Source of the DNA: Deltaproteobacteria bacterium
GTDB lineage: Bacteria > Desulfobacterota > GWC2-55-46 > UBA9637
Reading direction: 5' to 3'
Assembly (NCBI GenBank): GCA_016234985.1
Contig: JACRNK010000025.1
Location: 1-9,869, forward strand
DNA length: 9,869 nucleotides
Part shown: positions 4,815-9,869 of the stretch, one piece after another
Numbering within the stretch: the stretch's first letter is position 1
Layout of the letters: every line of letters starts with the position of its first letter
The notes under the pieces: generated by a model
The model's input: only the letters and a program-made list of their open reading frames with translations
The model's database searches: none
Told to the model about the DNA's origin: nothing
Translations under genes and position numbers: made by a program

Positions 4815-5483
4815 ATGACAATTATGAAGATATTTTTTGCAAACGAAAAGGGATTCATTAAAATGCTTGACGCTATTCTTAAAAGGGGCGAATCCGATAC
4901 TGCCGGGGTAGAGGAGGCTGTAAAGGCAATTCTGAAGGATGTCCGGCGCAGTGGCGACAAAAGCCTTTTCAAATATACGGAACGTTTCGACGGTGTCAGG
5001 GTTAAGAGCAAAGAATTGATGGTAGAGAAAAGGGAGATAAAAAAGGCCCTGCAAAAAATTCCTAAACATGATTTAAAAATATTGGAGCTTGCCGCAAAGA
5101 GGATAAAGGCATTTCACAAAAGACAGCTTGCAAAATCATGGGCATTTGCTGAAAAAGACGGAACAGTGCTTGGCCAGATGGTTACGGCTATTGAAAGAAT
5201 CGGCGTCTATGTTCCGGGTGGAAAGGCTGTTTACCCGTCCACTGTTTTGATGAATGTAATACCTGCAAAGATTGCAGGCGTCAAAGATGTGATAATTGCA
5301 ACACCGCCTTTCCCGTTTAGAAACATAACGGGACAAGCTAAAAACGGGATAAATCCGTATGTCCTTGCAGCGGCATATATTGCCGGCGCAGATAAGGTTT
5401 ACAGGGTGGGCGGGGCGCAGGCCATTGCCGCATTGGCTTACGGCACAGAGACCATTCCAAAGGTGGATAAGATCGTGGGATAG
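4815..5483 (+). pseudogene. hisD: Histidinol dehydrogenase, N-terminal part, interrupted by deletion
   Basis: HisD performs the last two steps of histidine synthesis, oxidising L-histidinol to L-histidine with NAD and Zn. This part holds the N-terminal half: ILKDVRRSGDKSLFKYTERFDG, RIGVYVPGGKAVYPSTVLMNVIPAKIAGV and YRVGGAQAIAALAYGTETIPKVDKIVG. After IVG the family continues PGN and into the signature IDxxAGPSE; here the next codon is TAG. About 40 codons are missing and the reading frame is lost, resuming at 5480. A second oddity is the stretch FPFRNITGQAKNG at the loop where HisD proteins have only a short turn, encoded by a palindromic element. ATG 4815 is used; ATG 4824 is an alternative. 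TATAAT (4796-4801) and TATAAA (4807-4812) lie just before it. Confidence 0.88.
5311..5350. repeat. Palindromic element inserted in frame in hisD, related to the one in the epimerase
   Basis: TCCCGTTT (5311-5318) and AAACGGGA (5342-5349) are inverted arms, with a further AACGGGA at 5327-5333. The right end GCTAAAAACGGGAT (5337-5350) differs from GCTTCTAACGGGAT of the epimerase element by three adjacent bases, and the left end TCCCGTTTAGAAAC resembles its ATCCCGTTAGAAGC. It encodes the extra residues FPFRNITGQAKNG. Confidence 0.55.
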
Positions 5484-6016
5484 CTGCCGACTTGCTCTCT
5501 CAGGCAGAGCATGACGAACTTGCGTCAAGCGTACTTATCACAACTTCAAAAAAGATGGCAGAGGCTGTATCAAAAGAAGTTGCGGCTCAACTCAAGAAAC
5601 TCAAAAGGGAAACTATTGCCAAAAAATCAATTGACAGATACGGCGCGATTATTATTGCAAAGAATCTGGCCGAAGCAGCAGATATATCCAACAAGATTGC
5701 ACCGGAACATCTGGAGCTTTTTGTAGAAAAGCCGTTTGAACTTTTAAAAAAGATTAGAAACGCAGGCGCAATATTTTTAGGACACAACACGCCGGAATCG
5801 CTCGGCGACTACATGGCAGGGCCGAATCACACGCTTCCGACCGGAGGCACTGCAAGGTTTTCCTCTCCGCTCGGCGTCGAAGATTTTATCAAACGTTCGA
5901 GTGTTCTTGCCTTTTCTCAGAAAGGGCTCAAGAGGCTTGGAAAAGATGTGGCGAGGTTTGCAGAGATTGAAGGATTAGAGGCTCATGGGAAAAGCGTTGC
6001 TGTAAGGATGAAATAA
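5480..6016 (+). pseudogene. hisD: Histidinol dehydrogenase, C-terminal part, frame-displaced
   Basis: Homology resumes at ATA 5480 (IAADLLSQAEHDE), the end of the HisD signature, in a frame one base back from the first part. It keeps the Zn and catalytic residues expected from E. coli HisD: Gln and His of SQAEH, the EH pair in IAPEHLEL, the Asp of LGDYMAGPNHTLPT and the His of EGLEAHGKSVAVRM. So the C-terminal half is intact and only the middle block (PGN through IDxxAGPSE and the following strand) is absent. Frame accounting gives a loss of 3n+1 nt, 121 nt if exactly 40 codons are missing. The apparent TTG start at 5492 is not a true start. The stop is 1 nt from the 3' CCA of the convergent tRNA gene. 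Confidence 0.85.
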
Positions 6017-7389: not shown

Positions 7390-7776
7390 ATGCCGACAAA
7401 CCTGCTAAAATCTCTTTCCATGAGATACGGTGAAAAGGCAGTCAAAAAAGCAAAACTTGAGATATGGGAAAATCCATATCCTGACAGGGATTATACCATT
7501 GACATATCCTATCCTGAATTTACCTGCCTCTGCCCACGTTCAGGCTATCCTGATTTTGCAACAATAAAGGTCAGCTATATCCCTGATAAAAAGGTGGTTG
7601 AACTAAAGAGCCTGAAGCTATATCTAAACAGTTTCCGCAATAAATATATTTCACATGAGGCTGTAACAAACGAGATTTTTGACGCATTAAAGAAAGGCCT
7701 CAAGCCGCGACATCTGGAAGTTATAGGCGATTTTAATGTCCGGGGAAATGTGAAAACAATGATAAGGGTAGTCTAA
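7390..7776 (+). CDS. queF: NADPH-dependent 7-cyano-7-deazaguanine reductase (type I QueF)
   Basis: QueF reduces the nitrile of preQ0 to preQ1 with NADPH in queuosine synthesis; it is cytosolic and related to the GTP cyclohydrolase I (T-fold) family. The 128-residue length fits the small unimodular type I. Cys48 in [16 protein letters not shown] is the residue that forms the thioimide intermediate, and Asp55 has the expected spacing of 7. Glu90 in SHE binds substrate, and [14 protein letters not shown] (71-84) is the QueF motif. ATG 7390 has no Shine-Dalgarno. The 3' 110 bp are duplicated in tandem: the junction creates TAA right after Val128, while the second copy ends GTC ATG TAA, so the ancestral protein probably ended in one extra Met. 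The enzyme should therefore still work. No other queuosine genes are seen here. Confidence 0.93.
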
Positions 7777-7883
7777 CAAACGAGATTTTTGACGCATTAA
7801 AGAAAGGCCTCAAGCCGCGACATCTGGAAGTTATAGGCGATTTTAATGTCCGGGGAAATGTGAAAACAATGATAAGGGTAGTC
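7664..7883 (+). repeat. Perfect 110-bp tandem duplication of the queF 3' end
   Basis: The unit 7664-7773 is repeated base for base at 7774-7883. It starts TAACAAACGAG and ends GATAAGGGTAGTC. The unit is not a multiple of three, and its first three bases form the new queF stop. The second copy is a non-coding remnant of queF and separates queF from the next gene. Confidence 0.97.
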
Positions 7884-8935: not shown

Positions 8936-9869
8936 ATGAATCCCGTTAGAAGCTCACCCATAAAGAAATCATCTGCCTCCGCCAAGAATTTGCTTAAAAC
9001 AGAAAAGGCTTCTAACGGGATGAATATTCTTGTTACCGGCGTCGCCGGATTCATAGGCTCTAATCTCACGGACAGGCTTTTGGAGAAAAACGAAAAAGTT
9101 ATCGCCATTGATGATTTCAATGATTTCTATGCTCCTAAGATAAAAGAGGAAAACCTTAAACAGGCTTTAAAAAATCCCAATTTCAAACTCTACAAAGGCG
9201 ATATAAGGGATAATGCCCTCATAGACAAAATCTTTAAAGAAAACTCCATTGATGTCGTCTGCCATATTGCGGCAAGGGCAGGTGTACGGCCGTCTTTGCA
9301 AGACCCCATATTATATGAAGAAGTAAACTGCCTTGGAACCCTGCATCTGCTTGAGGCGGTTAAAAAACATCCTGTCCAAAACTTTGTCTTTGCATCGTCC
9401 TCTTCTGTCTATGGCATAAACAGCAAAGTCCCTTTTTCAGAAGACGACCCGATATCGCAGCCCATCTCGCCTTATGCTGCAACAAAAAGGGCCAGCGAGC
9501 TTATGGCATTTAGTTATGCTCATCTATACAAAATTCCTGTAACAAACTTGAGATTTTTTACCGTATATGGTGAACGCGGAAGACCTGAAATGGCTGTGGC
9601 AAACTTCACACGGCTCATCCATGAAGGCAAGGAGATTGTGGTCAACGGCGATGGAACGGCAAAGAGAGACTTTACATATATCGGAGATATACTTCAAGGT
9701 GTTCTGGCATCTATATACAAACCATTTTCTTACGAGATAATAAACCTTGGAGAGTCAAGGGTGGTTGAGGTGAATTATCTTATATCGTTGATAGAAAAAA
9801 ATCTTGGCAAAAAAGCCAAGATAAAATACCTTCCGCCTGCGCCCGGTGATGTGCCCATAACATACGCTG
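8936..9869 (+). CDS. UDP-glucuronate 4-epimerase-like SDR, 3' end missing
   Basis: An NAD-dependent extended short-chain dehydrogenase/epimerase, open for 311 codons to the window edge. Numbering from ATG 8936: Rossmann motif GVAGFIG (35-41), IDDFNDFYAP (58-67), HIAARAGVRPSLQDP (110-124), SSSSVYG (154-160), catalytic YxxxK in SPYAATK (Tyr180, Lys184), RFFTVYGERGRPEMA (206-220) and KRDFTYIGDI (243-252). FFTVYGxxGRPxMA with DFYxxxxK is typical of UDP-glucuronate 4-epimerases (UDP-GlcA to UDP-GalA for capsule or LPS). UDP-glucose 4-epimerase and dTDP-glucose dehydratase are less likely. The core usually starts at MNILVTG, here Met29 (ATG 9020). The first 28 residues are encoded by a palindromic element. 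The leaderless promoter favours 8936, while family length favours 9020. Confidence 0.9.
   Translation, partial: MNPVRSSPIKKSSASAKNLLKTEKASNGMNILVTGVAGFIGSNLTDRLLEKNEKVIAIDDFNDFYAPKIKEENLKQALKNPNFKLYKGDIRDNALIDKIFKENSIDVVCHIAARAGVRPSLQDPILYEEVNCLGTLHLLEAVKKHPVQNFVFASSSSVYGINSKVPFSEDDPISQPISPYAATKRASELMAFSYAHLYKIPVTNLRFFTVYGERGRPEMAVANFTRLIHEGKEIVVNGDGTAKRDFTYIGDILQGVLASIYKPFSYEIINLGESRVVEVNYLISLIEKNLGKKAKIKYLPPAPGDVPITYA
8940..9021. repeat. 82-bp palindromic element at the 5' end of the epimerase
   Basis: ATCCCGTTAGAAGC (8940-8953) and GCTTCTAACGGGAT (9008-9021) are a perfect 14-bp inverted repeat around 54 nt. The arms are translated as NPVRSS and KASNG in the epimerase frame. The right arm runs into the alternative ATG 9020, so folding in RNA would hide that start. 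Confidence 0.85.

Follow-up and report, generated by a model that had tools for sequence, protein, structure and literature searches.

Elements of the IS200/IS605 type insert as single strands and do not duplicate their target. Cyanobacterial small dispersed repeats (SDRs), as reportedly described by Elhai in 2008, measure 21-27 nt, comprise several stem families with a common fold, and occur both as nested copies and within larger repeats; the same author is said to have proposed that they spread through an RNA intermediate. SDRs are also mentioned in the available text of PMC3116915 and PMC2884548. Short hairpins with a tetranucleotide at the foot represent the architecture recognised by IS200/REP transposases (PMC6006769, available text). 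Rickettsia palindromic elements (RPEs) range from 105 to 146 bp (PMC2229807, in part). According to the available portion of PMC3733652, RPE-4, RPE-6 and the Neisseria dRS3 repeat are placed among CGTC-tagged REPs, which are defined by a CGTC, TGTC or CCTC tag, an 8-9-bp stem with A/T at the base, a loop mostly of 4-5 nt and a CCA tail, and for which no dedicated transposase is known. The same portion reports REPs inside genes in several species, and in-frame palindromes as such are therefore not new.

The hairpin analysed here lies in hisD, in a stretch of DNA of 9,869 nt (the window) that represents one contig (C276) of a 1.49-Mb genome, 63% complete.

Boundaries of the hisD insertion

An earlier note on the window had described a palindrome in frame inside hisD at 5311..5350. 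Its arms (TCCCGTT and AACGGGA), its frame and the lengthened protein loop were all confirmed, but comparison with the hisD genes of relatives restricts the element to 5311-5337 (Table 1). The AACGGGA regarded as a third motif between the arms is actually the true right arm of the hairpin. The relatives' empty sites further indicate that the supposed right end, GCTAAAAACGGGAT, is native hisD except for its first base, and the supposed right arm, AAACGGGA, is the native sequence coding for Lys-Asn-Gly. To the right of the element, relatives read, for instance, CCGTCTAAAAATGGT.

Table 1. Features of the hairpin element and of the interrupted hisD gene (window coordinates).
Feature	Position	Strand	Basis
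27-nt stem-loop element TCCCGTT-TAGAAACAT-AACGGGA-CAAG	5311..5337	+	18 copies in own genome; covariance model 40.1 bits; missing from relatives' hisD
5' stem arm, 7 nt	5311..5317	+	sequence; stem covariation
9-nt loop TAGAAACAT	5318..5326	+	conserved where stems vary
3' stem arm, 7 nt	5327..5333	+	sequence; fold -9 kcal/mol
Unpaired CARG-type tail, CAAG	5334..5337	+	tail counts over 143 copies
Left target flank CCTT (consensus CNNW)	5307..5310	+	87 independent sites
Native hisD sequence CTAAAAACGGGATA	5338..5351	+	relatives' empty sites
Right target flank CTAA (consensus YTTW)	first bases of native 5338..5351	+	relatives' empty sites
hisD 5' part (222 aa) with nine inserted codons, ending in a stop that follows a deletion	4815..5483	+	
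hisD 3' part, other frame, 121 nt missing at the join vs L032	5484..6016	+	

Nine relatives at the level of the order (L032-L040) carry hisD without the element and encode TPP-SKNG or close variants; genome G004 gave no hisD match and hence falls outside this comparison. The empty site of L035 reads ACACCGCCGTCTAAAAATGGT, and the window reads ACACCGCCTT, the 27 nt and CTAAAAACGGG, in this order. Excision of 5311-5337 yields ACACCGCCTTCTAAAAACGGG, which differs from L035 at three positions, all of them third codon positions. No bases are left over after removal of exactly 27 nt, i.e., hisD features no target-site duplication. At the protein level, the short turn of HisD, TPP-SKNG-INP in relatives, is expanded to TPP-FPFRNITGQAKNG-INP, and the nine extra residues are absent from all 18 other aligned HisD sequences (30 loci were drawn from the 55 genomes with a match, and a motif filter removed 11 of the 29 besides the window's own). 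The turn is thus longer here, as the earlier note had supposed, and alignment with close relatives defines a precise insertion of exactly 27 nt, or nine residues.

Directly after VDKIVG (window 5460-5510), 121 nt that L032 possesses are missing from hisD, and the frame shifts. The gap is either a real deletion or an assembly join, and the sequence makes it doubtful that this hisD has a function of its own. With the gene interrupted 3' of the element, this contig provides no basis for tolerance in HisD; the notion that the element occupies tolerant sites is sustained by other genes, among them lipA, a MEMO-like gene, murF, bioF and bioD.

The window holds additional repeats. An inverted repeat, TCCCGTTAGAAGC...GCTTCTAACGGGA, precedes an epimerase gene (8941-9020; arms at 8941-8953 and 9008-9020). 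Since the likely true start of this gene is the ATG at 9020, most of the repeat is probably located upstream of it. The hisD and epimerase palindromes had been taken for related copies. This kinship found no support: at E<=0.01, the covariance model described below has a single match in the window, 5311-5337; because the supposed right arm is native to hisD, the likeness reduces to native codons and a shared CCCGTT. Symmetric, epimerase-like CCCGTTAGA..TCTAACGGG repeats form a separate set found at three places in the genome (L001-L003). An exact 110-nt tandem duplication (7664-7883) spans the end of a gene that, from its motifs, we take to be queF-like, and a methylase-like gene (625-2321) is split over two frames near 1800 by a frameshift or a sequencing error. 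Rfam gave no match for positions 5200-5450.

A dispersed family of hairpins with covarying stems

The first 23 nt of the element, TCCCGTTTAGAAACATAACGGGA, occur 18 times in the 1.49-Mb genome at <=3 mismatches, and the reversed pattern does not occur; the further copies anticipated by the earlier note thus exist. The 27-nt consensus, TCCCGTTTAAATACATAACGGGACAAG, was found in 10 of 97 genomes, every one within the order. A looser form matched all 11 order genomes, controls giving 0-1 matches per strand. A covariance model was built from an alignment of 31 distinct units. At E<=0.05 (these E-values are rough), it yielded between 39 and 143 matches per order genome (11 genomes, 910 matches altogether) among the best 150 candidates scored in each. 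At E<=1e-4 and with stricter filters, 8-39 matches were retained in each of the 11, and at E<=1e-4 five of the 86 genomes outside the order had 1-9 matches, so that 16 of the 97 genomes match overall.

The exact TCCCGTT form was sought in 84,980 species genomes and turned up in 42 stretches. Most (26) come from MAGs labelled Deltaproteobacteria; nine belong to Proteobacteria BP5.bin83, four to Gammaproteobacteria RBG_16_37_9, and one each to Gammaproteobacteria clean993, a Brocadiaceae and a Nitrospirae MAG. The latter five genomes contain 3-18 model matches each at E<=0.001. The near flanks of the Nitrospirae copy (L102) are those of L022 from the window's own genome, and contamination of that MAG is therefore possible. 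Viral contigs gave no match for the one exact pattern searched, the TCCCGTT form. In a limited literature collection, covered in part, no description of a 27-nt family of this type was recognised.

Units consist of a 7-bp stem, a 9-nt loop (e.g., TAGAAACAT) and a CARG-type tail, 27 nt in total. Hairpins with an identical loop but different stems are present in the fetched DNA. Selection by loop and tail only gave 25 matches lacking the TCCCGTT stem: seven pair at all seven positions, none at six and the rest at five or fewer, and the reversed-DNA control gave no perfect stem among four. With a looser loop selection, 9 of 63 matches are perfect and one has six pairs (reversed control, 0/14). 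In the alignment of 31 units, 98.2% of the cells are paired, changes on both sides occur at six of the seven pairs, and none of 500 shuffles reached the observed covariation score. Rows of this alignment were picked partly for pairing, and the selection by loop and tail only is therefore the cleaner test of the stem.

Loop and tail are conserved. When loops of 5-13 nt were allowed, 150 of 151 perfect 7-bp hairpins with a CADG tail had a 9-nt loop, although much of that DNA was fetched since it held 9-nt-loop copies. Within 434 kb retrieved for purposes other than the element, 12 of 13 hairpins have a 9-nt loop (four of the 12 are the hisD and lipA copies and two MEMO copies); reversed DNA gave none. 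Among 143 copies, collected partly by tail, the tail reads CAAG in 81, CAGG in 48, CATG in 12, TAAG in one and CAAA in one, i.e., CADG in 141 (CTTG, CCTG or CATG on the opposite strand).

Target sites, host genes and reading frames

Presence and absence of exactly 27 nt were observed at the DNA level in three genes, hisD, lipA and a gene that we name MEMO-like, in all cases with exact boundaries and no duplication. The lipA gene carries the unit in the window's own genome and lacks it in the eight relatives with a match (G003 and G004 had none): AAG-(27 nt)-ACGGCTGGCGG corresponds to AAGACGGCAGGTGG in L268. As a separate change, the own lipA gene has one extra codon a few codons beyond the unit. 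The MEMO-like gene features the unit in G002, G004 and G007, and is free of it in G001, G003, G005, G006, G008, G009 and G010; in the window's own genome, this gene is cut by the contig end ahead of the site. The MEMO gene tree involves two changes and, its backbone being open, leaves one origin followed by losses and repeated insertion undivided. In L007, one element is inserted inside the loop of another, again as exactly 27 nt.

Insertion sites show a preference. At 87 independent sites, C is found at -4 in 61, A or T at -1 in 72, C or T at +1 in 78 and T at +3 in 67. The full motif CNNW/YTT (slash, point of insertion) occurs at 21 of the 87 sites vs a background of 0.71%, and the preference is seen separately in 41 TCCCGTT-set sites and 52 other-stem sites. 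Read on the element strand, the empty site of the relatives' lipA (CCGT/CTTT) fits fully; those of hisD (CCGT/CTAA) and of the MEMO-like gene (TCCT/TATA) fit in part.

Non-genic copies often reside within larger hairpins, such as a GTAG...CTAC repeat, a terminator-like stem in L077 and BP5 repeats. The GTAG...CTAC repeat holds the 27-mer in its hairpin loop, GCCGA/TTTATCGGC, in L010, L074, L099, L103, L107 and L131, and G003 contains repeats made of aaatatcctcctt followed by the 27-mer. Perfect hairpins around the empty site are modestly enriched at >=5 bp (7/39 vs 122/1637 in the control); the counts at >=6 bp are 5/39 vs 43/1637, and at >=8 bp the difference is not significant. A fold-based test of hairpin-loop targeting revealed no enrichment (9/39 vs 24.8%), and tail position 3 showed no guide-target covariation with flank +2 (p=0.49).

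As 27 nt divide into nine whole codons, a gene that receives the element gains nine residues and keeps its frame beyond the insertion; the nine-codon length is nearly constant. The flanks of the 143 distinct copies were joined, and long ORFs spanning the site were sought. Joined ORFs of >=200 aa span 51 copies, 49 of which are open in frame, with 33.7 expected at random phase (P=1.1e-7); at >=120 aa, 61 of 67 are open vs 44.2 expected. A few copies are orthologous between species, and these counts are accordingly not all independent. The 51 elements lie in sense orientation in 17 ORFs and in antisense in 34, and 26 copies have no spanning ORF. All six phases are used among the ORF-spanned copies. 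A bias towards one particular frame was thus not found; there is instead an excess of readable frames.

Hosts identified by Pfam encode an aminotransferase (BioF by PDB hits), PTH, a secretin, Cas4 (in the Brocadiaceae), TldD/PmbA, a flavoprotein, LpxK, GrdB, the FUR C-terminus (two species) and the HsdM C-terminus. PDB hits added LipA, MurF, TrpF, PcrA, GGPP synthase and BioD, and, from motifs in their translations, we take other hosts to be FolC, HypF, PyrE and QueH. PDB alignments of nine queries display a clear gap at the element or beside it in BioF, LipA, MurF, TrpF, GGPP synthase and BioD, and a small gap only in PcrA. For PTH, no gap is seen at the element in the two PDB alignments shown, and the Pfam match extends over 68 residues across 59 profile positions; a PMT-like ORF had no PDB hit. 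This ORF (L157, 537-2105) carries two 27-mers. In bioF of L154, the 27-mer is accompanied by a second, related hairpin insert with a TAGAAACAT loop, both in frame. Translations of FRISDFKISNLKSQITN/ISNLKSQISNLK-type repeats, another in-frame repeat class, occur in the hosts L183 (FolC-like), L172 (TrpF) and L185. In a weak AlphaFold model of LipA (mean pLDDT 58, nine sequences), the insert (about residues 195-203) falls in a low-confidence stretch between a helix (182-194) and a strand (210-217), a placement consistent with a loop, though no proof of one.

Probable mode of movement and relation to described repeats

The exact hisD insertion is one member of a family of 27-nt stem-loops, dispersed in each of the 11 order genomes searched and with stems that covary. 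The element probably moves as a single-stranded hairpin, cut and joined without target duplication by an enzyme acting in trans. The 27-base hairpin is likely a very small mobile element. A hairpin with a tetranucleotide at the foot, exact joining and a preferred site fit a single-strand cut-and-join reaction of the IS200/IS605 and REP kind. In this scheme, the element would travel as a single-stranded DNA hairpin, with cleavage after the target CNNW and after its own CARG end; a candidate enzyme would act in trans and join the ends without target duplication, and host proteins would tolerate the nine added residues at loop positions.

For the mobilising enzyme, Y1 (IS200/REP-type) transposases are the foremost candidate, but no more than that. 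PF01797 (Y1_Tnp) is found at E<=1e-5 in 10 of the 11 order genomes and in 34 of the 86 outside the order, and at this threshold is absent from two element carriers, G008 (100% complete) and G019 (98%). Around 40 of the order's 53 Y1 matches, eight elements were counted in 191 kb, about the density that comparable cut-offs give genome-wide. Linkage to Y1 genes was thus discarded, given the lack of clear enrichment beside them and the two element-bearing genomes without PF01797. GTAG-tagged hairpins near Y1 genes stand out over the tetranucleotide background. One Y1 locus (L324, 1437-4462, in G009) holds four model matches, two being weak, in a stretch of about 1.7 kb; the sole such cluster among the 40 Y1 stretches searched, it may be due to chance or provide a lead.

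The main rival to single-strand DNA movement is an RNA route, in which the transcribed 27-nt hairpin would be reverse transcribed or reverse-spliced into new sites. The very small size, the covarying stem with its conserved loop, exact insertion without duplication and insertion into the element's own loop would all agree with such a route, which we nevertheless hold to be doubtful because the element occurs in both orientations in host ORFs. Removal at the transcript level, as a tiny intron-like or bypassed sequence leaving the proteins normal, could account for a stable hairpin with exact boundaries, but internal stops would then not matter, and the excess of open frames (49/51) makes it very improbable. 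Still less weight, practically none, can be given to a chance palindrome or a natively longer HisD loop, since the genome holds 18 copies vs none in the reversed control, and relatives lack the element.

The family might also be simply a CGTC-tagged REP, of the dRS3/RPE-4/RPE-6 superfamily, that has lost its tag and is in no way distinct. The same genomes hold CGTC-type hairpins of the form CTGG-ATTCCCGC-loop-GCGGGAAT-GACA; 11 of the 20 found have 9-nt loops, and TARARRCAT, which is also the 27-mer's loop type, appears in seven of them. Moreover, in DNA not fetched for the element, tails on the same stem and loop type are CADG in 12 of 22 cases, TGAC or CGAC in five and other in five, indicating that two kinds coexist with one core. 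CGTC/TGTC-tagged hairpins with 9-nt loops, mostly of the 27-mer type, were noted in L003, L089, L103, L113, L115, L200, L210, L232 and L234. In contrast, the 27-mer has a CADG tail in 141 of 143 copies (a set collected partly by tail), no CGTC or TGTC foot, a 7-bp stem, no CCA tail and an exact insertion boundary of its own. Loss of the tag is therefore an unlikely explanation; sharing a core with the CGTC hairpins but differing in tag, stem length and tail, the 27-mer is better viewed as a sister class than as a CGTC REP.

We tentatively raise the possibility that CARG-tailed 27-mers constitute a third REP-like class, mobilised by an enzyme outside the known REP transposases: a nine-codon unit, seamless at CNNW/YTT, that decorates core enzymes of a whole order with short peptides and has in some cases spread to unrelated lineages. 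If so, they would rank with the smallest mobile DNA units described. With its exact boundaries, its site motif, a nested copy, a structural model and empty sites in closely related genomes, the family makes gains mappable and candidate enzymes assayable. Core enzymes such as LipA, MurF, BioF, BioD and TrpF also offer many natural insertions of nine residues, a resource on how proteins absorb foreign peptides.

Compared with described systems, the family resembles RPEs in that palindromic repeats are found in frame in genes for conserved proteins. The RPE-like behaviour proposed in the earlier note is supported by the short loops of relatives, the many copies and the open frames; in-frame insertion into conserved genes is documented by the empty sites of hisD, lipA and the MEMO-like gene. 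Unlike RPEs, which have a long stem-loop, the element is 27 nt long with a 9-nt loop and another tail, and its hosts are MAGs mostly labelled Deltaproteobacteria. Like CGTC-tagged REPs, it is a short GC-rich hairpin with an unpaired tag and no known dedicated transposase, and resident CGTC-type copies have the same 9-nt loop type; however, its tail is of the CARG type in place of a CGTC, TGTC or CCTC foot tag, and a 7-bp stem, a 9-nt loop and the lack of CCA depart from the 8-9-bp stem, 4-5-nt loop and CCA tail of that class. A hairpin with a tetranucleotide at the foot is shared with GTAG REPs and their RAYT (Y1) transposases and with IS200/IS605 ends, but GTAG is missing, and the element tracks Y1 genes poorly. 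As in IS200/IS605, insertion occurs 3' of a preferred short sequence and without target duplication, the motif being loose (21 full fits at 87 sites). The 27-mers are similar to cyanobacterial SDRs in being dispersed hairpins of 21-27 nt with a common fold and nested insertions; the likeness is one of description, and the two differ in phylum and in the in-frame coding use that is prominent here.
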